From assembly GCA_030248295.1 (NCBI GenBank), contig JASANH010000073.1, positions 248,001 to 312,000 on the forward strand: a stretch of 64,000 bases of DNA, in the 5' to 3' direction. Source of the stretch: Mesodorylaimus sp. YZB2_4 (taxonomy: Eukaryota; Nematoda; Enoplea; Dorylaimida; Dorylaimidae). Every line of letters begins with the position of its first letter. Position 1 is the stretch's first letter. The position numbers and the translations under genes were made by a program. Of the stretch, positions 591 through 64,000 are shown piece after piece. The notes beneath the pieces were generated by a model. It was not told the origin of the DNA. It did not search any database and saw only the letters and a program-made list of their open reading frames with translations.

Positions 591-792
591 TTCGAAGACA
601 TGTTGTTGTCACTTTCAAATTGGCGCAACATAGCAGACATAACAGGCCCTTTATACGTGAAGGCGGGAAATTCAAAAAACCTCGCCGCTTCATAGAAGCG
701 TCACTTAAGCTGGATTTGGATTTGACATGTGTCAATCATGTAATCACATGGATGATACTGGGTATGGACAGTGAGTACCGCCGATATGGTCA

Positions 793-1020
793 TTGGCTGG
801 GTCAGTAATGTGAGCCAGTACTGTACATTGGCTAAGGGTGGGCTGTCTTGACCTCCTCCACCCTGGTGGACTTGGAGGATGGACGGTGACCTGCTCGCTC
901 CTATACTTGGCTGGGTCATTAATGTGAGCCAGTACTGTACATTGGCTAAGGGTGGGCTGTCTTGACCTCACCCACCCTGGGTAACCTGGGTGAGTAACGG
1001 TGATCCAATCGCTCCTATAC
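793..1020. repeat. 114-bp tandem duplication
   Basis: Two adjacent 114-bp copies, 793-906 and 907-1020. Both begin TTGGCTGGGTCA, share the block around the TACTGTACATTGGC core and end with GCTCCTATAC. They differ mainly in a short C/G-rich middle. No coding potential is seen. Confidence 0.85.
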
Positions 1021-1433
1021 TACTTATACAGTTGCCACATACTGGAACCGAAATCTTTTACGAAAATGTGAGGAAGTGGCTCAGCAATGTTTTAAAACGA
1101 CATCAGATCACGCGATTTGAAACGATATACAGGAATTGCTAGGAAAAACCTCGTAAAGTCTTGGTCTTGGATTTAAATAATGCGTGCACAAAATGTCAAA
1201 ATTTGGTTGACTTCTCACGAGATTTTTGACTTTGCCAGGGGCTCCAAAAACTTTTTGACTTCGACATGGACTTTAACTGAGGCCAAAAGTTTTTTTGACA
1301 TTAATATTGACTTTGACGTAATTTTGAAAACATACGATTTAGACTTTGATATTGACGTCACTTGCAACACTAGTCACCCCCCAAGTGTTATTTGCAAAAG
1401 GAAGACAAATGAATTGTTAATTCTGAATCTTAC

Positions 1434-1847
1434 CATTTTCTCACTGTACGTAAATCTTCTCGCAATCCCCCAGCTTGGGTCGCAGTCAATCTGAACAGCT
1501 GGTTTCCAGTCAACGTTTTTTCTGTCTCGATCTGTTTGATAAGGGTAAATGAAAATGGATTTGTGATCAGGATCCAATTTCTTAACAGATACAGAGAACA
1601 GAGCTATCAAATATTTGTGTTGAGGAACTAACATGGATTCGGCAGATAAAGTCTTGGGTGCAGAAATGAGCATGACATCGAGACAATATTGAGAATTTAT
1701 AATTGTAACTAATTCTCTGGTGGACAGGTTGAACTCTTGCAATCCATTAGCGCATGCGATATAGAATAAATCATCTTTCTCCGATACGGCTACAGAATTT
1801 GGATAGAGCACCTGATCTGGCAAAATGATTGACATCGGAGTCTCCAT
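1434..1847 (-). CDS. beta-propeller-like protein, first exon only
   Basis: An open frame on the minus strand starting METPMSI (ATG at 1847) and ending at a GT-AAGA donor after codon 138. It is clearly paralogous to exon 1 of the gene at 60643: both carry an LPD-x-V-x-YPNS block, a GL-x-x-F strand, a central C-x-D, an ALF/ALV strand and a final W-G segment. Both exons end in phase 0 at the corresponding place, so the intron position is shared. Function is unknown; the two-exon relative looks like an NHL/SMP30-type six-bladed propeller. No second exon was found downstream on this strand in the remaining 1.4 kb, which is occupied by repeats. It is either a truncated copy or a gene continuing past the window edge. 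The frame is intact, so it may be functional. Confidence 0.6.
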
Positions 1848-7101: not shown

Positions 7102-8467
7102 TCAGATTCTGCAAACGGCTTCTTCGGGGAACTCCAGTTCCCACAGGCGTTTCAGATGTTTGCCCTTGACATCGCGAGGAGAACCGAAGCTAGTGTATCC
7201 TTTCTGGCTGTCTCCCTTGTTCCAACCGGCCTGGCTGCGAATAATGGTCTGACTCTTTTGGGTCTCCTCGAACGGGATGGGGTCCCCTTCGTAGTTGGAC
7301 TCGCGCACGACGTCTCGTCCGGTGCCGAATCCGACCATGCCCTTTTGCGAGGCGTAAATATTGCTACCCATTTGGTAAGGCACCAAGCCTTGGCCGATTT
7401 GGACTTGCCGATTGAGCCCGGGCACTTGCAGCACTTCCCAACGTGGCTGACCGAATCCGGTCATGCCCACTTGCGAGGCGTACTTGTTGCTGCCCATCTG
7501 GTACCCGATCGTCGTCTGGTCCGGGTGGTCGACCAGCTGATCCGGGTGCTTGCTGTCCTTCATCTTCGTCAATTCTCGACGGTTCGTACCGAATCCGGTC
7601 ATGCCCTTCTGGCTGTCGAACTTGTTCGTACCTGCTTGCAAACGGATGGTGCTCTGATCGATGCTGCTCTCGTGGTGGTAATCCGGGTGCTTAGTATCGA
7701 TCATCTTGGTCGTCTCACGACGGTTCGTACCGAAGCCAGTCATGCCCTTCTGCGATGCGTACCTGAAACGAGTCTAGCATTCCACACTGGCCATGAAGGG
7801 ACTGCTAGTGGCGACAAATTTGAAAAATCAATCAATAAGCGACTCAACCTTCCCCATCACTAAACCCTGCGCCTACTTGTTGGTACCGGATTGCAATCGC
7901 ACAATTCCTTCGCAAAGCAGAATCTTTTCTTCCGGCAGATCTTGCAAATCCTTCGGGTTCCTATTCACACCATGCGATTCACGCACCACGTCGCGTCCAG
8001 TACCGAATCCAGTCATGCCCCTCTGACTGTCGTACTTGTTCGTACCGCTCTGCAAACGAACTTCCAAATCCGATAAACGAGCAATTTCCTCCGGGATTTC
8101 TTGCAAACAATCTAAAATATCGATTTATTGATTTTCGAAATAGCGGGAAATTCAAAAATTGCTTACCAGATTTGATTTTAAGACTGGTGTTACGTGGTGT
8201 ACCAAAACCAGTCATCCCCTTTTGACTGTCGAATTTGTTGGTACCGTTTTGCAGAATAGCAATGCCATCGGTGGCGCGCAATTGTTCTAGGCTCCATTTC
8301 CCCACACGTTTCCCGGCAGTAGGCTGCGGGGTACCGCCTCGACTGGCCACGCGGGCCTCCATGGTCACCGGGGCTTCGGCCGGGGGTGCCTCTTCCTGCG
8401 GCGGGGCCTCTTCTTGAGCTGGCGCCGGTTGCGCACCCTTCTGTCGCCAAGGCTGTTTCATCGCCAT
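7102..8467 (-). CDS. unc-87: UNC-87-type calponin-repeat protein
   Basis: Three exons on the minus strand: 8467-8167, 8111-7877 and 7762-7102 (phases 1 and 2; canonical GT-AG), giving 398 residues. The N-terminal 50 residues are rich in A, P, E and Q. Then come seven calponin-like repeats of the pattern Q-x-G-[TS]-N-x-[FY]-[DA]-SQ-x-GM-[TV]-GFG, some split by introns. Seven CLIK repeats and no calponin-homology domain is the architecture of nematode UNC-87, which binds and bundles actin filaments in muscle. The last repeat is divergent (GWNKGDSQKGYTSFG). The ATG is preceded by TTTTAG with two bases between, suggesting a trans-splice site or an upstream 5' exon; alternative N-terminal exons, known in this family, cannot be excluded. 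Intron 1 holds one copy of the GCGGGAAATTCAAA motif (8143). Confidence 0.93.
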
Positions 8468-11090: not shown

Positions 11091-11806
11091 TTTTGAATTT
11101 CCCGCCCGCGCGCCGCTTGTGACATAAGATCGGGGCTGGCTGCTTACTTTGGAAATCCAGACAGATTCTCCAAGTACAAAATTAGACTGACACGTAGGGG
11201 CCATCCATAAAGGTCGACCGCACAAAATCTCGATTCTTTGACCCCCCTTCACCTGACCGCATGCCGACCACTTATCGCGAACCCCCCTCAAAAATGGTCG
11301 ACCACTTCAGCCAGACCCCCTCCCCCTTCAAAACGCGGTTTTTTGAAATCTTTTGTCTTATGCTTTCTTGAGCTCGACAAGATGCCATCTCCTTCGAAGA
11401 CAAGACATTTTAATTGATGGAGCGGATTTCTATTTTGTAAAAGCCTCCACAAACTTTTCCCACAAACTTTTCCCCATATTTTGTAAAAGTTTTGCGGGTT
11501 GGGCCGCGCCGGCTCAGTTCTCTACGGGACTGTCAATCATATTAGCTGGCAAGCAGTCATGAGATGATAAGCGTCTGTGAGGGACAGGTTGGGATCCCGA
11601 TCCTGATCCTGACATTGAGGCATCGGGATTCTGCTAATAATTATGATATGCATAAGCATGGCAGGCACACTCTGATCCATCATATCTGCCATGAAGCAGT
11701 AGCGATGAAGAGGCAACAGCAACATCGGCTCAAATCGATAATGATAGCAACACTAATTTTACTTAGCCTAGGCTGACCTTGCTGGACGCGTATCGAAACT
11801 GCGAAT

Positions 11807-12500: not shown

Positions 12501-12900
12501 CAATTTTTCCGTTTCGGATCAGATGCCATTCCAGTTGGGAATAAAGAGTCCTGATGAAGCCGAAATTGCATTATCGAGAATGAACGACCAAGGAGAAGAG
12601 AAGACAAAAAGTTTTGAAGGTTTGAACACGCACTACTGGTGAAAATAAAAGGTGTTTTTTTTCTCATCAAAAGTCTAAAAATGTGCTGCGGTCGACCATT
12701 GGCCGCTACCGCGCCCCCGCCCCCGCCCGCAGCTGACCACTTTTTGCCAACCCCCTCCCCCCCTAGGCTGCGGTCGACCTTCATGGATGGCCCCATAGTG
12801 AAAAAGTGAGAAAATTATGCATATTTTTTCGCGATTTCCAGAGTAAGCAACCGAAACCAATCTAATGTCATAAGCGGCGCGAGGGCGGGAAATTCAGAAG

Positions 12901-15875: not shown

Positions 15876-16098
15876 ATTTGAATTCCCGCCCTTATAGGAG
15901 GCTGCTTATGACAGTTTGACTCTTAGACACTTGAATCAGTCCGCTCAAATTTAGAACATCAAATGCGATTGTGATTTGAAAATTTATCGTTGATAAAATT
16001 GCTTACAAAACTCGAACCTAAAATTTGAATAAAATCGCGCAAACATCAGCTTGATCTTGGATTTGTCATAAGCAGCATGAGCGGGAATTTCGAGTTCG
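15876..16098. mobile_element. small MITE with TTTGAATTCCCGC ends
   Basis: The left end (AAATTTGAATTCCCGCCC, then GGAGGCTGCTTATGACAG) is repeated in inverted orientation at the right end (TTGTCATAAGCAGCATGA, then GCGGGAATTTCGAGTTCG). It is about 220 bp long with no coding capacity. The terminal sequence links it to the 11091-12897 and 36972-39034 elements and to single ends at 31763 and 35350. Confidence 0.65.
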
Positions 16099-18359: not shown

Positions 18360-19877
18360 GGGTTGAGCAGTAGTATTTCATCCGCGGAAAGTACGCTTTT
18401 TCAGCGAGCTTCACATTCTTGAAAGTCATGATCTGAGGAAGCACTATAAATTTTTAGCATAAGATACTTTTCGATTGGATGCCATTATTACTCGTATATC
18501 ACAGCGATACTGTAGTGCTTACTGTAGTTAGTACGGATATTATCAAATTCCCTGCTGCTAGTGCTTATACTAGAAGCAGTACAGTACACTAGCCTAAGCA
18601 CACTACACTGCCCATATGTTGTCGTAGTTCTCACTCCAGTAGAGTATCAGGCACTGACACATTATCCAGAGGGGCCCACCAGCCACACATCAGCTTGCTT
18701 ACCCAACGGTAGATGCTGTCTGGCCAAACTCTTCGGAGTGTGGATATGCTCTTTAGGTATGACCAGATAATGGTGATCAGCATCCGGCTTAATATCCGCT
18801 ATGACAAATACTTGCTCGTCCTAAAACCAGTCACAAGACACAAACAGTCTCCATGGGCAACTTGGCAATGGATACTTGGAAAATTATTCTCGTTTCCTCA
18901 TCCTGACCATTCGAATCGCTGACAACTTTGGGTGATATCATATCACAGAACACACACCCGAAGGGACACCGTTTTTTAAGGGACATGCTCAGTTCCATGA
19001 GACAAGCTCTGCTGCAAGCTCATAAAAGCAAAGTACCATAAAAACGCGATTGTGTGGCCTTAAAAATCTGTCATTTGTAAAGATTGCGTAACAAGCCAGC
19101 AACGACTGGCGCTCAAGGCAGACTTCAACAAACTCCATGACTGCATGACCGAAAGTGACGTCAAGACTGTCTATTGAGTCAAAAAATTACTAGAATGAAT
19201 GGACAATCATGCAGATACGTCAACTGAGACTGTAAGAAAAATAATAACCGGCCACTTGTTTGGGTGCACACGATCAAATTATACGTGTAACAACAACTTT
19301 AAATTTGAATTTCCCGCGTTTTTAGGGCCTTGTCTTGCCTGCTGTTACCTATCGCAGGGGTTTGTCTGCTCTTACCGCCTAAATGGCGAAGTCCACAAGA
19401 ATCATGAGCTTAGATCTATTTACTACATGTTTCTCTAGAAGAAACGGAGTCTCAAAAAATCGAATTCGCGAATCGATGATCCTTGACTTGATTTGTTGAT
19501 TTCTTTCAGGCAGGTGCGTATTTTTCGGATATCGCTTAGCTTATTAGCACTTAACTTAAGGCATTTGCGGCTTTTCAGGCTCGTTATCAAGCTTTTTCCG
19601 ACTCGGCGACAGTGTTTTCTAATACGCAGTCGAGATCGAGTGAATCAAGCAGCCATCTTAAAGTATGTACCGGTAATTCCATTCTGCCAGCGGCGCCTTC
19701 CTGAGTATTTCTTGTGATTTCCTTGAGCTCGGGCGTCCTGCTTCCCAGCCTGGTGGCCTTGACTTCAGTGCTTGGGTCCGCACCTCATAGCTGCACTAGG
19801 TTTTATTTGAGCAAAATCTGGCATAAGTATTCTAAACTTTCAGCCTTCCTTTTCGGTTTTGACTATCTATCTTTCAG
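18360..19877. other. intergenic, nothing recognised
   Basis: Contains one TTTGAATTTCCCGCG motif (19304-19318). No supported gene. The last part is upstream of the small gene at 19878. Confidence 0.4.
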
Positions 19878-28300: not shown

Positions 28301-28658
28301 TCCGAAAAATATCTAGAAAATGGGAATTTCGGAGCCAAAATCAGCGAAAATTGAGAGATTGCATTTAGAGATTCAAAATTTCGAATCACCCGCCTTTTCT
28401 ATTAGCTGCTGATCGTGCTGGAAGACAGCGAATCAGTTGAAGTGTCGTGTGACAGCGTGAAAATGATCAGGGAAAATCAGATTCTTGTCTGGAAAACTCG
28501 AAAAAGTCAGGGAAAATCATGTTTCGCTCTGTAGGCTCTGTCAGGGGAGAATTTCCTGCGGCTTGTACAGTTTTATTGCCTGGCCTGCACTCGAGGGCCT
28601 AGTGCGCATAAAGTCAATACAGAGCAGTATTTTTCAGGAACGCAAGAAGAAAGATTAA
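25345..28658 (+). CDS. TMBIM6: Bax inhibitor-1 (TMBIM6) family protein
   Basis: Seven exons: 25345-25403, 25657-25765, 25822-25942, 27131-27277, 27617-27797, 27863-27935 and the 21-nt 28638-28658 (phases 2,0,1,1,2,0). The product is 236 residues, essentially the usual length. BI-1 is an ER multi-pass membrane protein that modulates calcium leak and stress-induced death. Diagnostic features: HLKKVY near residue 25, AAAVGAYVHVF in TM1, LGYLFGFSFLSG, GPLMDVV, VMCGFVLYDTQLIMEK, and GDNDYIWHSVDLFIDF ahead of the last hydrophobic segment. The tail ERKKKD comes from the last micro-exon and is the basic C-terminus expected for the family. ATG context AAAATGG. Intron 3 (1188 bp) contains a GATCTGAG repeat block and a foldback element; the last intron (702 bp) contains a repeat also found at 43490. 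Confidence 0.96.
25985..26510. repeat. GATCTGAG-rich degenerate repeat block
   Basis: Dozens of AGATCTGAG, GGATCTGCTGAG and ATCTGCTCCTCAGTGAG words in both orientations. Many are self-complementary around GATC, so large hairpins are possible. It lies within BI-1 intron 3. Confidence 0.85.
26925..27060. mobile_element. foldback-family element in BI-1 intron 3
   Basis: A near-perfect hairpin core GAAACGTCAACCCG/CGGGTTGATGTTTC is followed by CAGCCGTAGGTATAGTCG, GGACTTGCCTGCTCC and a G/C-rich end. The same blocks, in reverse, make up the copies at 52445 and 52848. Confidence 0.65.
27478..27550 (-). other. tRNA-like sequence with B box
   Basis: The minus strand reads GCAGGTTCAAATCC (B-box consensus), preceded by a weak A-box-like region. 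Stems do not pair well. Probably an old SINE remnant in BI-1 intron 4. Confidence 0.35.
28120..28445. repeat. dispersed repeat, copy A
   Basis: The stretch with TTTCGAATCACCCGCCTTTT and CTGGAAGACAGCGAATCAG matches 43490-43700 (TTTCGAATTACCCGCCTTTT, GAATCAGTTGAA). A weaker internal duplication is visible between 28130-28200 and 28280-28370 (GGGAATTTnGnAGCCAA, CAGCGAAAATTGAGAG). Confidence 0.65.
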
Positions 28659-32212: not shown

Positions 32213-32940
32213 TATTTTTTTCTCAATATTTCCACATCGATCAAGAGTGCACTTCACCTTTGAGGCCAATCTTCTGCCCTGGGCCCATTTGAAGCGACGT
32301 GCATTGCCAGCCAGAGTGAAAATTGAAAAAATATTGGAACCATGCATGCTATGCTTAGAAATACGCGCGAATTTCAAAATTTTCGCTTCTACATAAGCGC
32401 AATGCGGCGAAAATATGTGCTATCTGTTAAGTACTTCGTTTTCCCGCACTTCCTATGAAAACGCGCGAAATTTAAATTTTAAAGTTCCTTCTCATTTTCT
32501 CGTTTTTGTCTGTGCACAATCAAAATTTTTGTGATTCGCGGGCTTCGATAAAAGTGAAGTTGAAAAGTCTAAACACCAGGTTTTTGTAGGCGTCATCTGT
32601 TCAGCGCTTAGTGCGTGAACAGAAAAAGACGCTAAATTTTGAATTTGCACATATTTCTAATCAGAATATTCAGGGTCTAAATATCTTTGTTAAATTCAAA
32701 TTTTTACAGCGCTCTGGATTACGCACTTGTGTATCACATTTAGGGGACGTTTCATAGTTAGGGGGCGTATCACATTCAAGGAAGATATTGTCGCGCATGA
32801 GGCTCGCGCGAGGATTTTCTAAAGAATTTGTTATGACGAGAGTCGAATCTGCGCCTCCCCCTTATTGACAGTGTACATCGTGTATATTGTGGCTCAGTCG
32901 TAGTAACAGCACAGATAGTGGAAAGTTGTACGTCGGATAA
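32213..32940. other. intergenic, nothing recognised
   Basis: AT-rich; a few TTTAAATTT and GAATTTGCACAT words, no supported feature. Confidence 0.4.
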
Positions 32941-33372: not shown

Positions 33373-33419
33373 GGATGTGGAATTCCATATGTCAGGGACA
33401 GTCAGGGATCACATTCACG

Positions 33420-38400: not shown

Positions 38401-41400
38401 GTACAGCTAACTGTCGCATTTTCGAATCGTTTTTTACTGATTGTTTTGAATATTTTCCTAGTTTTACGAAGATGGTGATGATTCCAGTAATAAACATGGA
38501 GCATATAAGCGAGTCACTTCGTAAAAAATCACTGATAAGAAGCATGGTTAAAAACGAAAAGGCTTTAGTGCCTGTAACCTGTTTTGTTTGAGAATGTACA
38601 CACCCTTCTTGTAGTGCCGCGTGTTCATTTCCTAAGAAAACATAATTAGCAAAGAACAAAGTTAGCAACATTCACACTCGACATTGCTGGTTCTTTTACA
38701 ACAGCGACGTGGCTGAGTTTGCATAAGAGTGAGAGCACGGTTTCGTGCCGAATAAAAGCCCTTTCTGATCAAGGCGCCAAAATTTGTACATTTCTAAAAA
38801 AGTAACAGCCAAATCGGCTGGCGCTCCATGAGTCGACGTCAAATCCTTACGCGCTCAATATACATGGCGCTATTTTGGCGGACACCAAATTGGCGCAGCC
38901 AAAATGCATGGCGCCAAAATGGCCAAAATCATACCAGCCGTTGACCTTATCAGCGCCAGTAGCAGTAATCTCCAGCTTTTTTCGTAAAGTGCTGTACGTC
39001 ATTTACGCTGGAATTTCAAAAACCGCACATCTCGAGTCTGATCTTTAAGTAACAGAGCCCAGGGTAACCGACAATAGGTCAAAGTCAAATCTGTCAAATA
39101 ATTTTAAATTTTGGGCGGGAAAATTTGAATTTAAATGTATCAGCAAAGATTGAAATAAAAATATTGAGCATGGTGTGCGTATCAATTGCAGGTGGACGCC
39201 TTGTGCGCCGCTGGCGGTGATAGCAACGTGTTGGTACAACGTCAACTATTGGATTTCGTCAATGCAGCTTTCCCATTAAACAGTCACAATCTACTTCGTT
39301 CCGATCTGATACGATTGGTCGAGAATTCCCTATTCGTTGTCTTAAAACGTGATATGTCGTTGAATCGACGTTTATATTCGTGGTTAGTCGGATCGAAAAA
39401 TGAAATTGAATATTTCGAAAATATTACAAAACCGTTGGTGGTTGAAGCGGTTTTAAGACTAATCGAGGCATCGAAAAAAGAAGAAAAAAGTGAGGCGACG
39501 AAAGATATTCGGACTAAATTATTCCGTTTATTGCTTTATCTTCTCGATCGACCCGATGTTGGACGACCATTGGTTTTGCAATTGTTGTCACCACTGCTTT
39601 TGGATTTGGTAAGCGATGCTGATGTGGATACGTCCTCGTTGGAGAATTCGTTGAAAGTTCTCGGTTTGTTGATGGACGCCTTGAAACCGGGTTTCATATG
39701 GGAATATTTGAATGAAAAGATCAAACCGTTAGTTAATGAATGTTTATCGAGTAATGGAGAGAAAATGATGACCGCGTCGGCAAGATTAGTCGGATATTTG
39801 GATGTGGTCGACTTGTTTTTGGCCAATAAGGATCTGGTAAGAGTCGTAGTACACTATTCGGATATGTTGTACCACGGGGGTTACAGTATGGCCTGTTGCC
39901 TGCACATCTCAGTCAAAAGCGCGCCAAGTGCGTACAATTCAACTTTCTCCAAAAATCTGAGATCTGAGCGAAAAGTACTTTGTTTTACTCTGATCCGCAA
40001 AATACTACAGATCTAATATACTGTTTTTTAAATGTGAAAATTGAATTTTTAGAGGTAGTTGAATTTCACGCACTTCGCTCGCTTCTGACTGTGATGCTCA
40101 GGCACCAGGTCATACTGTAATCGCTGGTTTCCCATAGGTGCTTCTGCAGACTTTTTTGCGGAAATTAGTTAAAAATGTGGGAGATCTGGCTAGCTAGAGT
40201 TGCTGAGGGCGTACCTTTCGCACTCAGTAACTGGCTTCTGCCAGTTGACGATTGTCCCATCCTCGCTGGCCAAAGTCCGTAAAACACGCAGTTTCTTGCG
40301 GATTTCGCGAAAAAGCGGGATTGGGGACCAAAGTGAAAAAGCGCCCCATTTAGTTGCTAATAGTTCTAGTACCAAAATGGAAGAAAAGTGCAAACATATG
40401 TAGTGTTTTCGTTATCGTTGATCTCAAATATCGTCGGCGAATGCAGTATTTTTATTTCAAGTCAAGCAGAAAGCAACGGTTGCGTTTTAAATAATCTTGA
40501 GGAGACTCAGAGGTGATCTTGTCAGCGACAATTTTAAAGAAAAAAATTCGCTTTGTTGACTAGTTGTCTTTATTTTTCCGTATGCTTTATTTTTAATTTT
40601 CCTAAATTTTTTTCATTTAATTTAGAAAATTTAAGAAAAATCGAGCCTTGCAATTATATCCACTCGATAGAGCACATTTTTCCCTACAGAATTGTCGCTG
40701 ACATCGACTTGGGTTATTGGTGAAAATTTCGAGTAAAATCGCCCGAAAGCGGCGACTCCTTAAATTTGGCGCAAACTTGCCTTTCGTACGACAAGTGAGC
40801 GAGCGACATTTTTAAGTAGGCCCTAAGAGACTGAGAAAAAGTTAGTTTCTGCTGTTTCTTTTTTGAATAAGCGCCCAATTGTAGTGGAGTTCACTCAAGC
40901 CTTTCGAAGTGGTTTTTTTGCTCCTCCGCCACTTTTGGGATAATTTTTCTCCAAATTCTTAGCGAAACGAGAGTTCATGTCAGCGGCAGTTTTGTAGCGA
41001 AAATTTTGCTCTGTAGACTAGCTGTCTTTGTTTTGCTTTTACTGCATTTAGTACGCTTCCATTTAAAATTTTTTACTTTGAATTGAGAAAATTTTTGACC
41101 ATTACGAATTAAATAATACGATTTGATAATCGAAAATAACGAAAAATCTTTGATAAAAACTGAAAAACGAAAAATCATGCATCGGAATTATATCTGCTTG
41201 ATAGAGCACATTTTTCTCTATCAAATCGTCGCTGACATCAAATTGGGTGATTGGTGAAAATTTCGAGCAAAATCGCTCGAAAAATAGCAACTCAGCGAAT
41301 TTGGCGCACAGACAGGCGAGCGTCCAGCACTCGGCTCTAACGAGCAAGGTGGGCTTCCTTCCTAAAATTTGTTGTATCTGTCCCTTCGTTAGTTTTTGCA

Positions 41401-44400
41401 TGTCTTATCTCTTTTGTATCTTATCTTAGTCACGGCTAGTCTAACGCATTCTTGTTTGCAGCTTTGTCGGATCGAAAAAAGCGTGTTTTTGTTAGCCTAG
41501 TCGCCTAATGCGTGTGGCATGGGAAACCCACCCTGTTCGTTTGTGCCGCGTGCGAACAACTATTATTAGGCCATGAAAATCGTAGCGATTATAGTAATCT
41601 GCTATCCTGCGCATCACAGTCAAAAGGGCGCGAAGCGCTTGCAATTTAAATTTCTTTACAAAAATGGATTTTCACGTTTAAAAATATGGGCATATCGGAT
41701 GTGAAGAAAACGGAGTATACTAACCTTGTCTTCTATGGGGACTTCATATCACAGCATACTCACCTCCAGCCCCCCCAGGTGTTATAACTTTAAACAGAAT
41801 GCACGCTCTAGAATCGATATCGGAATTTGAGAACAGAGCATGATATTCAGATTTAGCACCTACATATGATAGGGGTGGCCAAAAGTCTGACCGGTATCTC
41901 AATGATTTGAGAATTCGAAATTGCCATTTCCTAATGGAATTTAAATTTCTTTGCAATAGAATTTCTACTTTTTGGTATGTGCTGGGGGTCGAGTACTTTG
42001 GCTTTCCCCACTAAAATGTGGGTGCTGAATCTGAATATGAGACTCTTTCTTGTACGGTGCTCTTCATCAAGAATAGTTGAGAAACTGAATGAAAAACATA
42101 TCGTGAGCGGGAATCGAACCCGCACCCCTGAGGTTACTAATCCGATGAACCGACCGCATTATGCCACCGTTTACTGTTTTCTGTTTTAAGCTTAGCCATA
42201 GCGATAATAATGGTCAGCATACGGGCGAATTCCTTGTGCATTTGTTGAATCATATCGCATTGGCTCGATCGAATTATTCGCAATGCGATATTGAACAAAT
42301 AAGATTGGCTAAACGATATTTGGAGACGACGATAGGTTTGTTGAATGCAGTGCAACGTATTTCGCCTCCTATCGATTTATCGTCGTTGGTCGAACGTTTG
42401 GAAAAGAAAGCGGCCAAAATTGAATCGATTGGACTAATCGATAGTCAAGTGTGCTTCGAAACGTGTCGACGATCGGCGGCATCGATGCTGAGTGCTGTGG
42501 CTGGTATGTTCAGTGATGGGACACCCGATGAACACTCCATCGAACTGTTGACCACGTTGGCCTCTTTGTTAAACTTATTGGCCGATTTGCCCATATATGC
42601 CGTCTTGGAATTCGCAGGTACGTCATACTTTATTCATGGCCAAGCACTCGAGGGCACATATTTGACAATCACTTCCTTGGGCGGGAGTCGAACCCTCCGC
42701 TGTAAGGGCACACTGAGTGAGAGGCAGACGCCTTGACCCGCTAGACCGCGACCCGGGCGGTATGGGTCTCGCTCACTCTCCCCCCACTCGCCATGGCACG
42801 AGGTTACGCACATGGCCGAGGGCCGGATGTCAAACCCACCAGGCCGCGGGATGGGTTCGATGGGCTTGTTTGTTTGAAACTGATTGGCAAATGTGTTGTT
42901 TCAGATGTGAAACAGGAGACTTGGTCGACTTGGGTCGGTGACCTGTGTCGATTATGTTTCACTCGTCACTTCGAAGCGCAACGGCAAGCAGTGGAAATAT
43001 TGTTGCATATGTTCGCTTTGTGGAAATCGATCGTTGAACAACGACGAATGGCCCTCGAATCGTTTCATTGTCGACGCACGAGTGAGAAACCGTCAGTTTT
43101 CTTGAAACCGTTATTGCCGGAAAAATGCGTTTTGGAATGTGATTTTTTTAAGGTATGTAAAAGATTGGATTAGGCCGGCATCGTTTGATCCATTCTTGAG
43201 CCTGGATCCTGATCTAATCTTGCCGATCTGTGCCTAATTGGTTCGGGGAAGCAGAGCCATGCTGTGGATCGATCGAATCGGGAACTTTGAACTCCCGCCA
43301 AAATTTTCAGGGCTGATCGTTTCAGCAGTGGCAGTGAACACCTGGGTCGGAACTGACATCAAGTCTCTCCCCACCCCTTAAAAGGGATACAGGAGAACAA
43401 AGCAGCGCCAAGTGGCATTTCATTTTGATTTTGGTAGAAAAATGGTGACTCTTCGTCATTGTAGTTTGCCACGCATAATCCTAGCAGATAATGTGTAGAA
43501 AATTTGAATTGCCTAACCAGCTGGAAAACCTGGCGAAGTCAGGGAATCTGAGATGTGCTGGAAGTGGTTTTTTTGACAGAAGTTGATGGGATTTCGGAAC
43601 TGAAATTAGGGAAACTGCACTCGAGATTTCAAATTTCGAATTACCCGCCTTTTCGATGTACCTGCCGATCACGCTGGAAATAAGTGAATCAGTTGAAATT
43701 GGTTCAGTAGCGCTGAGGCTCCCATTCCTTGTGTGAACCTTGTGCTGGGGTCGGATCGGATCCTGAGGCCGGATCGGTCGATGCTTACTTAAAAATGTTA
43801 ATTCGTTAAATTTTTTTTGACTATTGGAATTTGTCCAACAGTTTCTTAATGAGTTGTTTCAATTGAAACTTTTGAATAATTTTGGGTTTTTTTGACAGAA
43901 GTTGGCCGACAGTTTGTGGGAACGATTGGACGCCTCGACGCCCGAGTACCACGATGAGGCGTGTCGACTGTTCCTTCTCTTGCACAGCATCCTATGGGAG
44001 GCTGGACAAGATGGCTATGGCCATAGTGTCTGCGTGCAACTGGCCTTGGAGAAGATGACCAGCGGCGATTCGGTGAGTGTCTTTTCTTGGGGGGGGGGGG
44101 ACGAGCAAACCGATCAACGCATCGTATCTTGGCGGGCTGGGAGCCTAAGTGCGGCTGCGGTGGTGCAAGTGATTAGGCCAGCGTCTGCTCAGCTGAGTGG
44201 TCCTGGGTTCCGGGTGTAAATCATGCTGACTTTGCACGCCAGGCTGTGGGTAACTTTTCCTGTACTGCCGAGTCGAGGTGACGCTAGTGACAGGCTTATC
44301 GCTAGTTGTCCAGGCGTGACAGGCTTCATAGGCCATTAGCTACCATCTGAGGAAACCAGGGTCCAGTCCAGGACGCCATCATGCAGAGGTCTCGTCCATT

Positions 44401-47400
44401 CCTAGGAAAATAAAGCAGGGAAGCTGCTATGGCTGTATGCCAACGCCTTGTACAAACTATTCGCAAAATTTAAATTTCCCGCGCTTTTTTTATGTTGGTA
44501 GGGGTCGTTTTCCCAGGTGGCCTAGTGCTGGTGCTACCTCACGATCAAGTGCTGTGTGCATACTGGACTAGAATGACAAGAAGATACCGCAAATAACTAA
44601 CTTGGCTATCACACAATAATAGTACTCAAGACTAGTGCGGGTTCAATTCCTGGTCGGTGCTGGTGGTTTGTACATTGGTTTTATTTCTTGATTCTAATCT
44701 GAGCTATATTTGTTTCATCTAAAAATACAGCGCGCAGTAGACTCGTGGTAAACAGATTGTGGTGGCTACATTCAAGATTTTAAACCTGCGCATTTTCGAA
44801 ATGCGCGGGAAATTCAAATTTCGGTGTTGTTAGGCTCCATGTTGATCGGTTTCGTCGTCGTGAGTTTGGCTGACTTGAAATAACCATTTGGTTTAGGAGA
44901 TATTAAATAACTGTGCATTTTAGGTATCGCAGGCGGAATGTGCTAGGCGGTTTTGTGTTTTGTGGTCGTTGGGTCGTCGTTATTTGGCCAATTCATTTCT
45001 GCCCGGATATCCGTGTCGACCTCTTATAAGGTATGTGCCCACGCCGGGTCACCTGTCCTCGGCAACGGGGAGCCTATTTCCAAATGTAGCGCCTAGTAGA
45101 TACATTTTCCCGCAAAAATTTGAATTTTAAAATAGAGGGAAATTCAAAAATGTAGTTCAGTCCTCGCCTGCTGGTAATAGACCTAACCTTGTCTGCCTGT
45201 AGTATGTGCAGGATGGACTAAAAATATGGCGAACTTTTTAAGTTTTTGGCGCGAAATGATGGTTTGAAAATGGATAATGAGTGATTGGTAATTTGTAGGC
45301 CCGCCTTGTTATTACTGGACAATTTGCAATCGAATTCTGCGCTGGGTCAGTTGGCCCATTGTTGGTACGACGATTGTTTGGACCGGGGCGATTTGCCCAC
45401 GCTTTTGCACGCTTTCTGCACATCGTTGGCGCAATCGACGACGGCTCGACTGTCCGTGCAGAGTGTCAAAGTGGTATTAATAAGTTCGCAGCAGGACGAC
45501 GAGGCGACGACGGTGGCTTACAGACTGGATTCGTATTCGAAGGGGGCCTTGTATCATCGGATGAATCACCAGATTAGAAATCTGCCCGATGTCACCATGT
45601 TGGAGTAAGGCCAGTCATAGGGTAGTGTTTTGTGGATTGGGCCTCCACGGCACTCGCAACACATATTGCCTGGCAGTCCTGACATGATAAGCAAGGCCTT
45701 TCCTGAGTGTGTCGTCCAGCATCGGCTGATCCGAGGGGTGATCCAACCGCTGGATCAGCCGGATTGGCGACTGAAATTTTTCGCTCTGTATCTGCTGGAG
45801 AATGATAGGGTGTGGAGTACGATGATGAGAAAATCCCGTTTTTTTCTCACAAATCAGCATTCAGTCCCACTTTAGGCCCAGCATCGACCGGTTCGAGCCA
45901 AGGCCTTGATCCTGATCCCGATCCGATCCAGGGTCCGGATCAGCCCGATCCGACCCAGGGTCCGGATCAGCCCGATCCGACCCAGGGTCCGGATCAGCCC
46001 GATCCGACCCAGGGTCCGGATCAGCCCGATCCGACCCAGGGTCCGGATCAGCCCGATCCGATCCGGCCGATCCGCTTCAAAAAATAGAAGATAGATGGGG
46101 ATGACGTGTTTGGCACTGAGGCCTCACCAACCTGCCATGCTTCCTCGCTCGTCACCACTCCAAAAGACATAAGAGAGCTAAGCAGCGCCTAAAGCGGGAT
46201 TACGTGCTGATTTGAGAGAAAAAACCAAGATTTTTTCGTTATAGTTTGTCACATTTTATCATTTCCCAGCTGAGGAAGCGCAAAAAATATTAGTTGCCGA
46301 TCCGGCCGATCCAGCAGTTGGATCGGATCGGGAACTGATCAACCCTTCGGATCGGCCGATCGGTCGATGCTGCCTGTAGGCTCTGCTTATCTTTCCTGTG
46401 TTTTTTGGACTGACAGAGAGTGACAGCGAGGAAACAGAGCGGGTCGGTGAGGACTCGGTGCCAAGTACGTCATCCCCATCTAAAATATTTTGAAGCGGAT
46501 CGGCTGGATTGGATCGGGATCTGGATCGGGATCGGGGTCCAGGCCTTGGGTCGGATCGATCGATGCTGGACAGTGTCTCCACACGAGGGCATCCTGTGCC
46601 AAGATGGTCTTGGGCGACAAGGATCCTCGCCGACTGGTGGTAGAGAACGAGTTTCCTGATTCTCTACTCGTTCGGTTCTCTGTTCTCCTGTAGCGTTCGT
46701 TCGGGATCGAGATCGGGACTCGCTCAATCCCGACTGGGATCGGGATTTTAAGATATGTAGCGTTTTTCATAGCAATACCTGCAACCTACCCCAAGTAGCC
46801 GGCTAATAAAAAGCCAAAGATTTCCTTTCCTTGCAGTATTTATCATTGAATTAAAAATCAGGCAAGCGAAAACAGCGGAGAATCCTTTACAAATTAGCAA
46901 GCAAATCCTTCTCTATCGTTACAATCATCCGCCACAGTCTCGATGTTTCCCCTTCTGAAACATTCTAATCGCCATGACCATATGAGTCAGTGCCGATCAG
47001 ACTGTTGTCAGCTTACGCAGCAGCTGATGATGGCCCACCATCGTGACTGGACAGGCAACTGAACATGCTGGCCGATGCCATATCCAACTGCGCGCAGATT
47101 ATTTCAAAAAAAGCAGGACTTGTGCATTTTCTGGGAGTAGATTTATTCGATCATGACATTCTCGCCCATACACCAATCCCCCTGTTGCAATAAAAGCATT
47201 TTATCTCCACAACATTCTCCCAAATCCGGGATCAGGATCGGGTTCAGGTGGGCCAATGCCGACCGGGATTGGGATCGGGATCCCGAACGAACGCTACTCT
47301 CCTGGCTCCGGGCGACTAACTCCAGAGTCAGGACTGATCCTCGGGTGAGTCGCCCAGAGCCAGGTGTGCGAAGCCAGCGACAGACTTACAGTACTAAATC

Positions 47401-53400: not shown

Positions 53401-56400
53401 CTGTCATCAAACTTTTCTTCGCGATAACGAAGGTTGGACTGGCATTAGTGCATTCACCTAACAAAGTTTGGGTTGCACTTTCACCGTCACCATGTGACTG
53501 ACGGGTGACGGGTTGGAAAGTGATGCTCGCGGATGTTGAATGGCTATATTTCGCGACGTTTTTCAAATTTTTTGAACGAGACTTGAGGATTCTACAGTAG
53601 AAGGCATGGGGTTTAGTATTTTCAAAAATATTCAAATCTCGCGGCTTTTTTGCGTCTTTTTGCTGTAAGTTGACAGGTGTAGGAAGTGAAGTGTGCATGG
53701 AACGTGTTTTTTGGAGATGTGCTATCACATCTCAGCACTCACAGCACGGCTGTTGTACTAAGTTAGCAGGCTCACATGAAAAAGTGGTTGGAGGACTGGC
53801 TGTCGCAACAGCAGTCTGGCGAATTGTAAAGCCGCATCTGAGATGTTGGTGTCTGCTCAATGTTAGAGTCATCGCAAAAAACCGTAAGTCAATGAAATCA
53901 GCTTCAGAAACTTGCGCTGTAGTTAAAAATTCACCGCACACACGCACACCCCCACTATTGTGTAATTCGTTTGAATTTCCCGCTCGCGTGCCTGAGCATC
54001 ACTGGTCAAGAACCCAGTAGGTAAGAACAGCAAAATTTAGCCAGTGATGCAGGGCGGAGGAAAATTGAAGTCATTTTTCATGTATTCACTCATCCTGGAC
54101 TAGCTACGGTCACGGTTTACAAAAGAACTCCTTGTCCTCCCGCTCCATGCAGACTTCACTTCCCACACCTGTCCACTTACAGCAAAAAAGCCGCGAGATT
54201 TAAAAAGTTTCAAAGAAAAATTGTTTTAAAAAATTTGTTGAAAATACAAAATCCCAGACTTTGTACTGTTCAAAGCTCGTTCAGAAATTTGAAGAAAACC
54301 GCACCAGATATAGCCATTTAAGATCTTCGAGCATCTCTTGCCAGCCTGGTACTTATCTGTACTGAGGAGACGTGTGGAAATGAATTGTGTACTCTTCGAA
54401 AAAGACGCAACTGATACGACTAGGATATGAGGCGTACCAATATCGATGAAAGGCAGCGACCCAGAATATACTTAGAATTGGCTGTGAGGCTAGACAGGCG
54501 GAGACCCAGGACGGGGAACAAACCTCAATCTCCTTGTTTGCTGCTGTCTTGGACCAGAGAGCAAGAAAGTAGCAAAAGGCGAACAAGAGGGAATGGATTT
54601 TTTTGAATATAGAGTTTTCAAACTTGAAATGATACAAAAATGTTTAATTTTGGCGGGAAATAAAAATTGGACAAAAGCCCATTAAGACTTCTCCCAACAC
54701 AGAGACAAAAAAGGGCAAGAGTTTTACTTATTTAGGCTCAGGCGGCGACTGCGGCGGGCAAAGAAGGCGGGGAGAAGAAAAGTGGTGGATATTTGCAAGC
54801 TGCCAGGCAAGAATTGTTGGCGGCACTGCCCCATATGTTATCGACGGTGTGCGGATTATGGGCTGCCATCAAAGGCAATAAAGAACCCTTGGTTCCAGTT
54901 GGTCCGCCGCAGGTAGGTATGGATGCATGCCAGCATCGACTGACCCAACGTCGCACACCGCATGCTCATCTGTTTTCTGCAGTACTTTCTTTCGTCGACA
55001 AAGGACACCAGCAGTCATAAAGGGAGGAGCTGAAAGATATTTTGGCGGGAATTCAAAATTCCAGTCCAGATGAGCTACAGCATGGGTGGTTCGAATTGAA
55101 GGGCATGACAGACTGGTTCAGTAATTTATTTTTAGCGTGTTCGACGTTTGATTCTGGAATTATTGAGCCCGATAGCCGTCAACCAGACCAGACACTTTTT
55201 GTCAGCCTTGGCATTAGTGTGGTTGACGCGATCGAGCGATATGGGCCTGGCGGACAAAGTAAGTGTTGCGTTTTTCGGTTTGACCCTGGAAAAAATGAAT
55301 TATTTTAGTCTTTTACCGAATCGCAAGCTGATCTAATCGACATGTTGTTGTGTATAAAAACGTTGCCGTTCGAGAAACTGGTGGCTGGCGTATTGCAAAC
55401 TTTGAAGCAACCTGTTAGAGCCAAGAATACGGAAGAAAAAGACGCGTTCCCGTTGGAAATTTGCTTGTTGGAGATGGTGGCCGGGGTGCAGTCGGAAATA
55501 CAACTCAATGTTATCAAGTCGTCGTGGACACCGTTGCAGCAGCTGATCGTGGACGGACTGTCTGTCGTGTCCTTACCATCGTCGAAATTCTTGTTGTTCA
55601 AGTAAGTCGAGCCGTCAAACCGCCTCGAGTAGGAGGGCGCAGGGCAACCAGCCCGGGAAGCACGGATGTTGCCAGCCAGCGGATTGGAAGCACGGGTGTT
55701 GCCAATCTGGCGATTGACAGCACGATGCCCTAACGGTCCAATTGGACGTTGTGTCAGACATTATCCATAGCCAAGCACTGTATGGCGCACTCGAGGGCTA
55801 AGAAAAACAGATTTGACAATCATTTTGTACCGGGGTGGGAGTCGAACCCTCTCCTCTAAGTGCGCAAGAGAGGCAGACGCCTTAACCCGCCTAGGCCACG
55901 ACAACAGGCGCGACGGTAGTAGACATTCGAAAAGGCGGAAAGAGGTTCCACTTAACTGTACGTTGGCTCTGATTTGGTCTGAAGTTTTCGAGTGGGCGTT
56001 TCGATTTTAGACTATTTCATTCGTACGTATCTCGAGTGCAGAGTATCGACGACAAGACGAGTAGGAAGGAGGCGCAGGTACGGCGTGCCAGTGCGGTGTG
56101 CTGTGCTGATGGTGAGTGTATATGACGAGCTTTGATTTAGGAAGCGTGTCAGAAATTGGTGGAGAGTGTGAACGATGTGGTCGCCTGGCATTTGGAACAA
56201 CCCACGTGGCTGAAACGGTCGTTGGTTGTGAAACAGGATCCGGATGGTGAGCGATTTGAATGGTGGTGGGTGTCAGTATGTTGGAGGTGTCTGTTTTAGG
56301 GTTCGATGAGAAGACTGAGTCGGTCGATGTCGCGAATGGAATCAGTAGCACGAAGCATACTGCGCTATGGAGCGCCAAGGCGTTGAATCTGTTTGCCGAG

Positions 56401-60192: not shown

Positions 60193-60642
60193 CTTAGGCT
60201 TGCTGGATTGCAATGGGTGATGGGATAGGGAAGGGCGGCGATGATTTGAATTTGTATTTGATATGTTTATGAATCAAGTGGACTGTGCAATCTAACGGAG
60301 TAAACATGTTCTTCCTTGGCGCCATCGGGTCGGCCGTGCTGTGGTGCGTGTTCTGCGAGATCGCTGGACTTTGCTCTTCGCTTTCGTGCACTGGGGTAGG
60401 TCGACGGGCCGGGGGGGGGGGGGGTAACGCGGAAATGTGGATTTTGCTGTTTGCTGGACAATGAAGGCGCCTCGCCATGGGGTGAGGCCTGGAGCAGAAA
60501 ACCAGTCCCTGGCTAGGCGGTTCAAAAAAACTGGCCTGTCGGCGGCCGGGGCCTTGCTTTGTTTAGGGCGTGTATAAAATGTGGCGTCCGGTCCTTTGGC
60601 GCAGTTGGTGAGCGTGAATTCGTGGAAGAAGGTGGTCTGATA
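60193..60642. other. DOP1 3' flank and promoter of the propeller gene
   Basis: No AATAAA close to the DOP1 stop. A 14-base poly-G run lies at 60411-60424. Confidence 0.5.
60573..60579 (+). promoter_or_regulatory. TATA box of propeller gene
   Basis: TATAAAA, 70 bp upstream of the ATG at 60643, in a G/C-rich setting (GGGCGTG before, GTGGCG after). Placement suits transcription starting near 60605. Confidence 0.6.
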
Positions 60643-61996
60643 ATGAATGCTTGCAGCGCTACATTCCAACTTCCAGATATCGTGGCTTATCCAAATTCAT
60701 TTTCCATATGTAATGAATCTGAAACTTGCCAGGTGATCTCGATCGGCAGTTCGACTGGTCTCCATTTGTTTCGTCTCGATGACCAAGCAGACGTGCAGTA
60801 CGTGCGGACGGTGCGGGTTGGCCAGTGCATGGACATCGTGGCGGTCGGTTCGAAGAGCAGGGCCGTCCTGGTTGCCCTGGTCAATGATCCGATGGAGAGC
60901 AGTGGCACGCAGTCACTGCAATTCTTCCACACCAGCAGTATTGTGGCATCGAGTGGGGTGACTCCTTTTCATCGAGTCACTTGCGAACATGGATGGGGTC
61001 GGGTGTTGAAAATGGCATGGAACGCCAAATTGGTAAGCCGAGTTGTCACACTGAGCACTAGGGAACAGACAAGACCCACCTGCGTGCCTTCTGTCATTCA
61101 CACTGGCTGGCATGGCAAAATATTGGTTAAAATAGCTTCTGGTGACAGGACACTCATAAACTAGGAACTATGGTGGGTGTCTCTCGATCTTTACTGCAAT
61201 CCAACTGTTGAGGTGTGCTACAATTTGCCTGGTGTAGTCTGACTAGCGGCAAGAAGTCTGGTTTATTTCGATCCTGCTTCAGTAAAAGAGCCACCTGGAT
61301 CGGTTTGGGTTCTGGCTCTGCTGCAAAAGCTAATTTGGTGGGTGGTTGCAGCCTCGCCCAAGATAATGGCTGGGTGACCGGTGTAGACTAGTCGCCATGA
61401 CCCCTTGGCATGGTGGTAGCTGCTTGCAGTTCTCCCACCTGTTTCAGGACCGTTTGTATTTGACAACCAGGATCGATCATGAGCGTGGCAGGATGTCGTC
61501 CATTTGGTGCATCCCTTTTTCACTGCCCGATGATGACGCCTATCAGCCGTGTTCAATGGCGGTTCGGCTATTGAGCAAGAAGCCGGGCGACATGCGTCAT
61601 TTGGCTGTCGATGAGCAAAGTGATCGACTGGCCGTGGTCGATTACAGCTCTGGCCACCAGTTCACTGTCGATGTTCACAGCTGCATCAATGGCCAACGTT
61701 TGCTGACTGTCACTCGAGGCAGTACGGTTTGCAAGCCGCCTATCGGCTCGGTATGGTACCCCCACGGCGTGTGCTTCGATGGCCGTGGCTATCTGTATAT
61801 CCTCGACGAAACGTGTCGTGTTCAAAGGTTCAATATGAACAAGAAACGTTGCGATGCCATTGTGCACCGAACCTCGTTCGATCTACCAGAAACCGTGATG
61901 GCCGATTCTGAAATGCTGTTCATAGTGGGAAGTCAATATGGCAAGTCCAAGTCGGTTCCTAAAGCTGGCTATTTCACCATTTTCCGTTACTTGTAA
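60643..61996 (+). CDS. beta-propeller (NHL/SMP30-like) protein
   Basis: Two exons, 60643-61032 and 61430-61996 (phase 0 intron, GTAAGC donor, TTGCAG acceptor), 318 residues from MNACSATFQ. No signal peptide or membrane segment is obvious, so it is probably cytosolic. Repeating beta-strand blocks suggest a six-bladed propeller: LPDIVAYPNSFSI, GLHLFRLDD, DIVAVGSKSRAVLVAL, EHGWGRVLKMAW, then in exon 2 HLAVDEQSDRLAVVDYSSG, WYPHGVCFDGRGYLYILDE and VMADSEMLFIVGS. The YPHGVCFDGRGYLYI stretch is NHL-like. Specific function unknown. An alternative exon 2 acceptor lies at 61448 (TTTCAG, also in phase). A paralogous first exon at 1434-1847 keeps the same intron position. Same strand as DOP1, 451 bp after its stop, with its own TATA box. 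Confidence 0.78.
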
Positions 61997-64000
61997 TCTT
62001 TTGTAAGTGTTTTCATGCCATGATTGCTTGCTGTGTCGTAAACATTATGTCAAGAGAAACTAAAAAAGACATGTTGTGTTGATGTTATTGAATGTGTGGT
62101 CGTTGCGAGAACAGGTCTTTTTTTTCTCCAACGCAAATCCGCATAAAATCCAGCTTTGAAGGGCCAATTGAGATGAACTTTTTAGAAGATGACATCACAT
62201 GACACTGCACGCAGAAAAAATTCCTCTTATCTTAAATGTCTGGAAACGCTGCGACAAAACAAAAATTTGAAAATCGCGCGGGTTTCTCATTAGTCAGCAG
62301 GTGCAAGCTGCTTACCACAAAATATGCTGGAGTGTGCGCGCGACAGCAAGTTCCGCACGCAAAGCATGTATCTTTTGTTTCCTCTAAAAGAATCTTATAA
62401 TTTAAAAAATAACTGCAAAAAACAATGCAATATTCTTCATAAAAATAAAAGATACCATCTCTTTGTGAGTTCATGACACGAGGTTAGTAGAGTTACAGTT
62501 TTTCAACAAAAATAGAAACTCTATTTCGTGTTTTTTCAAGCGCCTGTGGAAGTTTAAGTGCACCCACACGCTTGACTTCCAGAATACCTGAACTGAACTT
62601 AAAGAACCAGGAAGCGAAAATTGTTTTACGGAAATGGAATTTGATGGACAGATCCCTCGCAGCCACAAATTATTTCATACACGCCCTTAAGCTGAATCTC
62701 TCTAAACACCATCTGCTTAGCACATTTATCATATCCTGCATTATTTGTCCTTCACTCCAAAGTCTCCGCCCTCAAATACAGTACCGTATATTTCAGACTC
62801 TTTTGAAACTTGCGCCAGCTCACAATCAGGACTATCATAGCTTTATATTCAAGGGTTCAGGATTTGCAAGGTGATCATTACTCAAACTGAAGGGTGCGCT
62901 CGAATAGTGTCCTTTCTCCGGCCTTGACACCTTGCCCTGGAGGGGGTTAATGGATGAAAAGTATTATACTGCAGGTCACTGATGCATTTGCATCAGATAC
63001 ACTCGCTGGAGTACTTTGTGGTCTGCTGTAGTTTAGCGAGCGTCAAGCCGTGCCTTTCTAAGCAATCGAACTGATCCCACAATTCTGTCACCATACGTAG
63101 TGAGAGAAACATGTCTGGTGTCTGATTGCTCGAAAAAAAAAATGTGGAAGCATGAATCTGGCGGGAAGAAATGACATGAATTTAGACCTACAATAGAGGA
63201 AGCCCCCAAATCTTCCTTGTCAGGCAAGTCTAGCGAGGTAAGTTTTGGCTACAGGCTTTCTGTAAGGGTCGACCCGGTGATTGCAAAGCTCCAATTTTTG
63301 ACCCCTGTTTTATATGTGAGTTCGATGCATCCATTCTTGGTGATAGTGATGTAAAAGTGCTTTTTAGTGCAAACTCGATTTTCACGGCATTATCCCCAAA
63401 AACGTTTTTTTAAAGTGCTTGGGCGATATTGGCCATAAATCACCCACGATCTTTCTCGATCAACGACATATCAGCGTGTTCGCAAACGAATGAGGAATCG
63501 AATGCCTGTAGCGGAGAGTTTCTACCCTTTTACCTACATTGAGATATTGGCACCTACTGGTATTGGATATTATGGCACAAAAACTTGGTAGTTGGACGAT
63601 TTCTGGCCAGAAACGCGGCATATCAGATGTTTTTCCATAAATGTTGAGAATTTCTGATGCCTCTAATCGTTATTTCCGAAGTTTTATTGAATCCAGGTTC
63701 GTCGCTGTTTTTGCTAAGTTTCAGGGATCGGTAACAAATTTAAGCATCTATTAGAAAATAAAAAAATAGGTATTGTACTGAGGCTGGTCAGCGGGCAATG
63801 GGAGTAATTTGCATAATCGTGTCATCAGTAGTTGAAACTGTCCATGGTTCTTTTAATTTAAACGCAAGAAATAAGTTTTTGCAGACTAGTTGGCCATAGT
63901 GAATTTTAAAATTTAAAATTCGCGCGCTTTGTCATAGGATGTTTGGGGAAGCTGTAGTACCAGAGGTTTAGGAGTCAGTTTTTTAACATTGCGCGCATGA
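61997..64000. other. intergenic, nothing recognised
   Basis: AATAAA at 62444-62449 is a possible but distant poly(A) signal for the propeller gene. Motif-like GGCGGGAAGAAATGACATGA at 63159. No gene or clear repeat supported to the window end. Confidence 0.4.

Follow-up and report, generated by a model that had tools for sequence, protein, structure and literature searches.

The 14-mer TTTGAATTTCCCGC, which is scattered over the 64,000-nucleotide stretch of Mesodorylaimus sp. YZB2_4 DNA analysed here (the window, C124:248001-312000 within an assembly of 145,146,385 bases), probably represents a regulatory element of the DREAM/DRM type with the general form TTYRAATTTSSCGC, in which a cell-cycle genes homology region (CHR) stands next to an E2F site. 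The element would belong to promoters of replication and cohesin genes; it is also carried, and would have been scattered, by several families of miniature inverted-repeat transposable elements (MITEs). In what follows, C-numbers are contigs and L-numbers are fetched pieces of the genome.

With up to three mismatches, the window contains 30 matches to the 14-mer, compared with 9.10 ± 3.13 in shuffled sequence (none of 100 shuffles reached 30), and seven of the matches are exact (Table 1). The half TTTCCCGC alone occurs 14 times against 2.27 expected, and GCGGGAAATTCA is the highest-scoring 12-mer of the window after masking of the tandem arrays. An earlier note on this DNA had described such a motif as scattered over the window, and this observation is confirmed. 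At 17 of its 22 coordinates, a match with no more than three mismatches lies within 15 bases (exact in 7 cases, with one mismatch in 3, two in 3 and three in 4), while the other five (39113, 43285, 45108, 50671, 63159) did not hold, with 4–6 mismatches each; three of these five (39115 on the minus strand, 45106 and 50676 on the plus strand) are TTTCCCGC without the other half. The density of exact copies in the window (7 per 64 kb) is about 11 times the genome mean (9.5 per Mb), although, since the window was chosen by a reader, it is not representative of the genome.

In the whole genome (145 Mb), the exact 14-mer is present in 708 + 672 = 1380 copies, where about 1.2 are expected from base composition, and the same word written backwards has none. 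When two mismatches are permitted, the numbers are 4241 + 4333 = 8574 for the 14-mer versus 308 + 314 = 622 for the reversed word. The frequency is therefore well above the one given by base composition, and the first outcome named in the earlier note as refuting its idea, a frequency no higher than composition predicts, did not occur. The near-copies (35 rows, drawn from the window and, for L001–L050, from sequence away from the exact site) vary chiefly at bases 3, 4 and 11 of the 14-mer. Opening the 14-mer at the degenerate positions of the CHR (TTYRAA) and E2F (TTTSSCGC) codes gives TTYRAATTTCSCGC, which has 3006 copies genome-wide, i.e., 1626 beyond the exact 1380 (reversed control 13), whereas a control with three other positions opened to the same kinds of change has 1716, i.e., 336 beyond the exact ones (reversed control 2). 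Among the 100 control places listed, which come from contigs C1 to C9 only, 20 are non-exact; by hand count, 18 of these are the E2F-allowed TTTGAATTTGCCGC, and T1C or A4G (bases numbered from 0) is found in only 2. It can be seen that the E2F half tolerates C-to-G variants at both middle positions, and that in the CHR half the Y and R variants are abundant while T1C and A4G are rare. Gaps of 1–12 bases between the halves account for 251 copies in all, against 1380 at gap 0 (reversed control 13), and in some of the gapped copies TTTCCCGC is immediately preceded by another CHR-like half. Because of the opened-position counts, their control and the rarity of gapped copies, the unit is best read, from its sequence behaviour, as rigid TTYRAATTTSSCGC, with the CHR half fused to the E2F half. 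The composite nature of the motif and the joint dispersal of its two halves, both proposed in the earlier note, are borne out at the genome scale. Seven gapped copies of the form TTTGAA-N-TTTCCCGC lie within about 1 kb at C27:443038-444100.

Much of this genome-wide dispersal is, to judge from the repeats around the sites, by MITEs that have the composite in their inverted repeats. In the first family (F1), the arm starts near TAGACCATTTCACAG and continues with AAAA, the 14-mer, TGCAAGCC, GCTTATGACA and GTTTTACAT; the facing copies are 240–260 bases apart and the 14-mer lies about 35–40 nucleotides (nt) inside the end of the element. In the second family (F2), facing copies are about 205 bases apart at several places, and the window has a pair of F2-type arms (11083-11222 and 12769-12907) about 1.5 kb apart. 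Further vehicles are a long foldback (L089) and the window arms 36940-37049 and 38955-39067, and several of the window copies are repeat-borne. The elements are short, have many copies and end in inverted repeats, as expected of MITEs; no clear target-site duplication was seen in the element flanks read by eye. When 102 distinct exact sites were grouped by flank, clusters of 22, 8, 4, 3, 2 and 2 (41 sites) and 61 singles were obtained, while 102 random control windows gave six pairs (12 windows) and 90 singles, so some of the motif pairs may be chance; as the sample covers about 7% of the sites in the genome, small families would look like singles, and at least three singles (L020, L030, L033) resemble diverged F1 or F2 by eye. 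A single dead repeat family, the other outcome that the earlier note had considered, is ruled out by the six flank clusters and by the 61 of 102 sites without a partner in the sample. In L089 itself (C9:1283700-1284500), the arms mirror outward from the paired 14-mers over more than 220 bases with 2 mismatches, up to the edge of the fetched piece, which points either to a foldback element of recent origin or to an artefact of assembly.

The F1 arms were collected by a genome search with the 82 bases inward of both motifs, which gave 31 places including the query's own, and 30 arms were aligned (L132, without an arm, was excluded). The 14-mer has 23 of 420 letters changed (5.5%), is exact in 18 of the 30 arms and fits TTYRAATTTSSCGC in 21. 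Fewer of its letters are changed than in the spacer (36/240, 15.0%, Fisher 6e-5), the partner box (32/300, 10.7%, 0.015), the outer arm (229/900, 25.4%, 1e-20, with some arms truncated, which biases toward a larger difference) and the inner arm (176/1200, 14.7%, 2e-7, a conservative comparison since this part belonged to the query and is biased to conservation), although the F1 copies share ancestry and all these Fisher values overstate certainty. Such a low divergence of the 14-mer would be expected under selection for transposition and under selection for host binding alike.

The composite is often followed by a second word. The 14-mer with GCTTATGACA 4–22 bases on forms 255 exact pairs genome-wide (reversed control 0), and 30 of the 33 copies of GCTTATGACA in the fetched sample lie within 40 nt after a copy of the 14-mer with at most three mismatches. 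The spacer between them is mostly 8 or 9 (F1, F2), with 5 to 12 also seen among the 100 pairs listed. Outside the main families, a set of 62 sites was considered (the 61 flank singles and L050), which still includes the likely diverged family members L020, L030 and L033. Downstream of these sites, TGTGCG is enriched (14 of 62 versus 0.87 expected), as are TGTCTGC (7 of 62 versus 0.23) and the partner box CTTATGACA at up to one mismatch (8 of 62, with a control fraction of 0.0058); upstream, the rise is weaker and limited to CTTCAAA and A-rich words. In five of the 62 sites (L005, L007, L012, L013, L050), the downstream word has the form TGTCTGC-N2-6-(G/T)(G/C)CGC, and a TGTCTGC-type word is a possible second partner.

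Composites of this kind are present upstream of MCM and SMC genes; an overlap with cell-cycle promoters was among the checks proposed in the earlier note. The MCM genes were obtained by a profile search with PF00493 (six genes, each with about 4.2 kb of upstream DNA) and the SMC genes with PF02463 (three loci with an N-terminal match), while identities and start codons were read from the N-terminal translations. At MCM3, the exact word lies at −158; MCM5 has TTTGAATCTCGCGC (one mismatch) at −269 with CTTATGACA 14 nt on, and MCM6 has TTTGAATTACGCGC (one mismatch) at −250 with CTTATGACA 13 nt on. SMC3 (MYIKQISIDG..., L110) has TTTAAATTTCCCGC at −200 with TGTCTGCTTTTAGCGGGAA downstream, reading TGTCTGC-TTTTA-GCGGG, and at SMC1 (MGFLKEIELENF...) TTTAAATTTCGCGC stands at −163, with CTTATGACA 19 nt beyond it. 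Together with a weaker copy at MCM7, all six MCM/SMC composites read toward the gene. Proteasome genes (PF00227; 13 places, all those listed with a match starting at profile residue 12 or before) served as the control, and none of the 13 pieces has a composite with zero mismatches, nor one with at most one mismatch within 300 nt of the exon. A composite with at most one mismatch within 300 nt is thus found in 5 of 9 MCM/SMC genes versus 0 of 13 proteasome pieces (Fisher p = 0.005). In the flanks of L031–L050 (about 114 kb), taken as background, there are 7 copies at up to one mismatch and 29 at up to two, which gives P = 2e-4 for three and P = 1.3e-3 for four, respectively, in the 1.8 kb of MCM upstream DNA.

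The orientation of neighbouring genes was compared at 36 long-flank sites outside the main clusters (three of them supplied by L021), for which the longest open frames, three at most, were taken from 1250 nt on each side and strand; 13 frames of each set, which were repeats or the shortest ones, were excluded. Downstream, 17 Pfam families were matched on the same strand (94 frames) and 3 on the opposite strand (93 frames); upstream, the numbers were 47 (88 frames) and 8 (92 frames), and among the 25 of the 47 families that were listed, most are overlapping WD40 models with one member each. When 20 downstream frames were scanned singly, 2 matched (a TAF8 frame about 115 nt after the L003 site and a kinase frame directly after the L046 site) and 18 had no match. 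These results are suggestive at most. The piece L021 (C5:152623-152910) holds three exact 14-mers in 290 bases on one strand, with differing flanks.

Several points weigh against a promoter element of this type. The gene sets are small (6 MCM and 3 SMC), and the MCM genes were chosen first, while the proteasome control and the SMC genes were chosen after the MCM result, before their own results. The composite at MCM7 (TTTTAATTACGCGC at −240) has two mismatches, MCM2 and MCM4 have the E2F half only (TTTCCCGCC, at −188 and −196), the partner box is absent after the MCM3 and MCM7 composites, and the fetched stretch of a third SMC piece (L112, match from profile residue 24 on) is without a site. 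If only zero mismatches to TTYRAATTTSSCGC are counted, the difference from the proteasome pieces is 3/9 versus 0/13 (p = 0.055). A one-mismatch copy at 388–660 nt is present in 4 of the 13 proteasome pieces (two of these four, with the E2F core TTTCGCGC, belong to an apparently duplicated gene), a further piece (L109) has a lone TTATGACA at −289 without the composite, and the control distances were measured to the point within the matched exon where the fetched piece ends, rather than to the start codon. The AAAA in front of the 14-mer in the F1 arms has 6 of 120 letters changed (5.0%, p = 1.0 versus the 14-mer); being conserved just as well, it shows that the conserved stretch does not coincide exactly with the E2F/CHR word. 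In addition, in the human CDE-CHR arrangement (CDE, cell-cycle-dependent element), the order relative to transcription is opposite to the order here, where the CHR is upstream and the E2F site downstream.

Taking both sides together, we still consider it likely that TTYRAATTTSSCGC is a CHR-E2F element of replication and cohesin promoters that MITEs have multiplied. The LIN-54-type CHR half (TTYRAA) and the E2F/DP half (TTTSSCGC) would form one fixed element for the recruitment of DREAM/DRM. In the promoters of replication and cohesin genes, it would be part of a code that lies about 160–270 bases ahead of the start codon, in many cases with the partner box CTTATGACA, or TGTCTGC at SMC3, no more than about 20 bases further on. 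Several MITE families hold the composite inside their inverted repeats, some of them (at least F1 and F2) with the CTTATGACA box, and their transposition would have scattered it over the genome, including several of the window copies. We infer that the composite would be bound by E2F/DP and LIN-54, MITE copies included, and that either the host or the MITE may profit from it, the MITE for instance by being expressed or mobile in germline or dividing cells. The control of MCM genes by E2F dates back to the ancestor of animals, which favours the capture of a host module by MITEs, while single promoters could be derived from MITE arms. A bolder version, that several unrelated MITE families each carry the full S-phase promoter module, so that the DREAM network of the host is being multiplied and rewired and some cell-cycle promoters are MITE-derived, is possible, and we hold it only tentatively; if true, it would give nematodes a second example of germline or cell-cycle regulation built by transposons, with a factor other than HIM-17. 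If the CHR-E2F reading is right, the composite with a downstream CTTATGACA, TGTCTGC or TGTGCG is a candidate promoter code for replication and cohesin genes that can be compared with the DRM motif of C. elegans, and this one genome could show whether transposons with recruitment sites for a repressor soak up or rewire the complex, or time their own activity. The account in the earlier note thus stands in part, as the composite and its dispersal were right, whereas the inverted repeats of MITEs as vehicles and the partner box CTTATGACA were missing from it.

To account for the 14-mer without DREAM/DRM, it could be only a transposase-binding or structural part of the inverted repeats of a MITE superfamily, with a coincidental likeness to E2F/CHR and with genic copies that are chance or old insertions. 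Its place in the arms of several MITE families, about 35–40 nt inside the F1 end, is what such a part would have, and together with the preceding AAAA it is the least changed part of the F1 arm. However, the permitted substitutions match the E2F/CHR degeneracy genome-wide, the composites upstream of MCM and SMC have a similar distance and orientation, and most exact sites are without a similar flank (in a small sample), and we therefore find this explanation unlikely. A lower likelihood is given to the identity of the composite with m1m2, the germline pair of the THAP protein HIM-17 in the CERP2/CELE2 MITEs. According to the available part of the source, as for the other papers cited here, the architecture is the same, with a motif pair in MITE inverted repeats and in germline promoters, but m1/m2 are described as unlike other regulatory motifs, which lowered this lead, and CERP2 is abundant in Caenorhabditis and not in other nematodes (PMC9757741).

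That the sites are dispersed structural marks of chromatin (origins, pairing or nucleation of heterochromatin), dense on some chromosomes, seems very improbable to us. The exact places, tallied by hand, are indeed unevenly distributed: C9 has 38 in 1.317 Mb, C5 has 24 in 1.551 Mb and C8 has 8 in 1.335 Mb, while the sparse contigs are C7 (5 in 1.338 Mb), C6 (4 in 1.417 Mb), C4 (3 in 1.729 Mb) and C2 (6 in 2.453 Mb). However, the MITE load predicts unevenness too, as 18 of the 38 sites on C9 belong to the F1 cluster. The DRM motif of C. elegans is depleted from the X chromosome (PMC3093354), and the sparse contigs here may be either X-linked or merely MITE-poor. That the composite and its partner form a two-part signal like the one for programmed DNA elimination in Caenorhabditis auriculariae and C. 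monodelphis has hardly any probability: the published signals are also motif pairs (motif-1 of 13–14 bp and motif-2 of 11 bp, 9–68 bp apart), but, as far as the available text goes, the sites of telomere addition that they mark are few, and additional above-threshold matches in retained DNA number at most 158, not 1380 (PMC13370393). Chance or base composition is ruled out by the genome count, and nothing speaks for it as an explanation of the whole, even if some of the weakest window matches (3 mismatches) may be chance.

Table 1. Copies of the composite in the window, with strand and sequence context.
Position	Strand	Feature	Context
663..676	−	exact TTTGAATTTCCCGC	recurs with its flanks at L050 (C8:121902); TGTCTGC and a GCGCCAA box come after it
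8143..8156	−	exact composite	at the start of an intron in a calponin-repeat gene (donor gtaagc, by sequence inspection about 10 nt upstream)
11092..11105	+	exact composite	F2-type inverted-repeat arm 11083-11222; followed by GCTTGTGACAT, a partner-box variant one base off
12885..12898	−	one-mismatch composite	opposite arm 12769-12907; followed by GCTTATGACA
15877..16094	15877 +, 16081 −	two degenerate copies that face each other (the one at 15877 is a base shorter)	each followed by GCTTATGACA; MITE-like pair
19304..19317	+	exact composite	flank without a similar partner in the sample
28380..28393	+	three-mismatch copy	in a 75-bp repeat (28368-28441) common to 43623-43697
31762..31775	+	exact composite and GCTTATGACAG	F1-type context; groups with F1 by flank
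32463..32476	−	TTTAAATTTCGCGC, full match to TTYRAATTTSSCGC	repeat common to 63901-63960
36984..36997	+	TTTGAAATTCCCGC	inverted-repeat arm 36940-37049; inside the DOP1-like gene region
39007..39020	−	TTTGAAATTCCAGC	opposite arm 38955-39067
43635..43648	+	TTCGAATTACCCGC	in the 75-bp repeat whose other copy is at 28368-28441
44469..44482	+	TTTAAATTTCCCGC, full match to TTYRAATTTSSCGC	
44805..44818	−	exact composite	faces the 44469 site
53970..53983	+	exact composite	TGCCTGAGCATCA downstream, similar to the foldback element L089

The sites from 36984 to 45135 are placed between matched parts of the DOP1-like gene. The window genes include matches to Srsx and Srg chemoreceptors, which we take to be nematode-like. 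Between the arms 36940-37049 and 38955-39067 lies the first copy (37084-37646) of a repeat whose second copy, 88% identical, is at 46737-47298. The window also has about 20 copies of an 18-base unit (GACTGTATCACAGTCAGG) at 32956-33423, adjoining a reverse-transcriptase frame at 33484-34134 (RVT_1), degenerate arrays of GGATATGCAAAATC-like units at 48285-50289 with a 55-base unit at 49270-50225, and a 52-base tandem array at 165-632, through which minus-strand reading frames stay open. The C. elegans spliced leader exon SL1 had 0 exact matches, and a search with RF00199 (SL2), run without a positive control, had no match; both results say little.

In the paper library searched, TTTGAATTTCCCGC occurs in no paper on nematodes to judge by title, GAATTTCCCGC together with nematode was not found, and none of the papers joining four of LIN-54, E2F, transposable element, MITE and nematode was, by title, evidently on this subject; in their available parts, PMC13016608, PMC4605740 and PMC5464667 give no motif sequence to compare. 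The closest known system is the hybrid DRM motif of C. elegans, with the E2F site 5' and the CHR 3' (PMC3093354), which is located at promoters of cell division, development and reproduction genes (PMC3093354, PMC5683655), while TTYRAA is the LIN-54 code applied to C. elegans DRM peaks (PMC5683655). As there, E2F is next to CHR, in the same order as in GCGSSAAATTYRAA (the other strand), with the published spacing given only in a logo as far as the source was available. Unlike the C. elegans motif, which is known from LIN-54-bound promoters, the composite has more than 1000 exact copies, many of them in MITE arms, and has the partner box CTTATGACA. The multiplication of E2F sites by MITEs has a parallel in Brassicaceae, where MITEs of several superfamilies multiplied them and most of the MITE-borne ones are far from genes (Henaff et al. 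2014, via the review PMC12595863), although these are plants and the 10-bp E2F motif has, in the part of the review available, neither CHR nor partner box. Finally, the CERP2/CELE2 elements of Caenorhabditis hold the m1m2 pair 10–30 bp apart in their inverted repeats, and it is also present in germline promoters (PMC9757741). Both are cases of nematode MITE inverted repeats with a motif pair that is also used at promoters, and they differ, when compared by description, in the factor, which is a THAP protein in Caenorhabditis, and in m1/m2, which are said to be unlike other eukaryotic regulatory motifs (PMC9757741), whereas the composite described here resembles the E2F and CHR sites of the DREAM/DRM complex.

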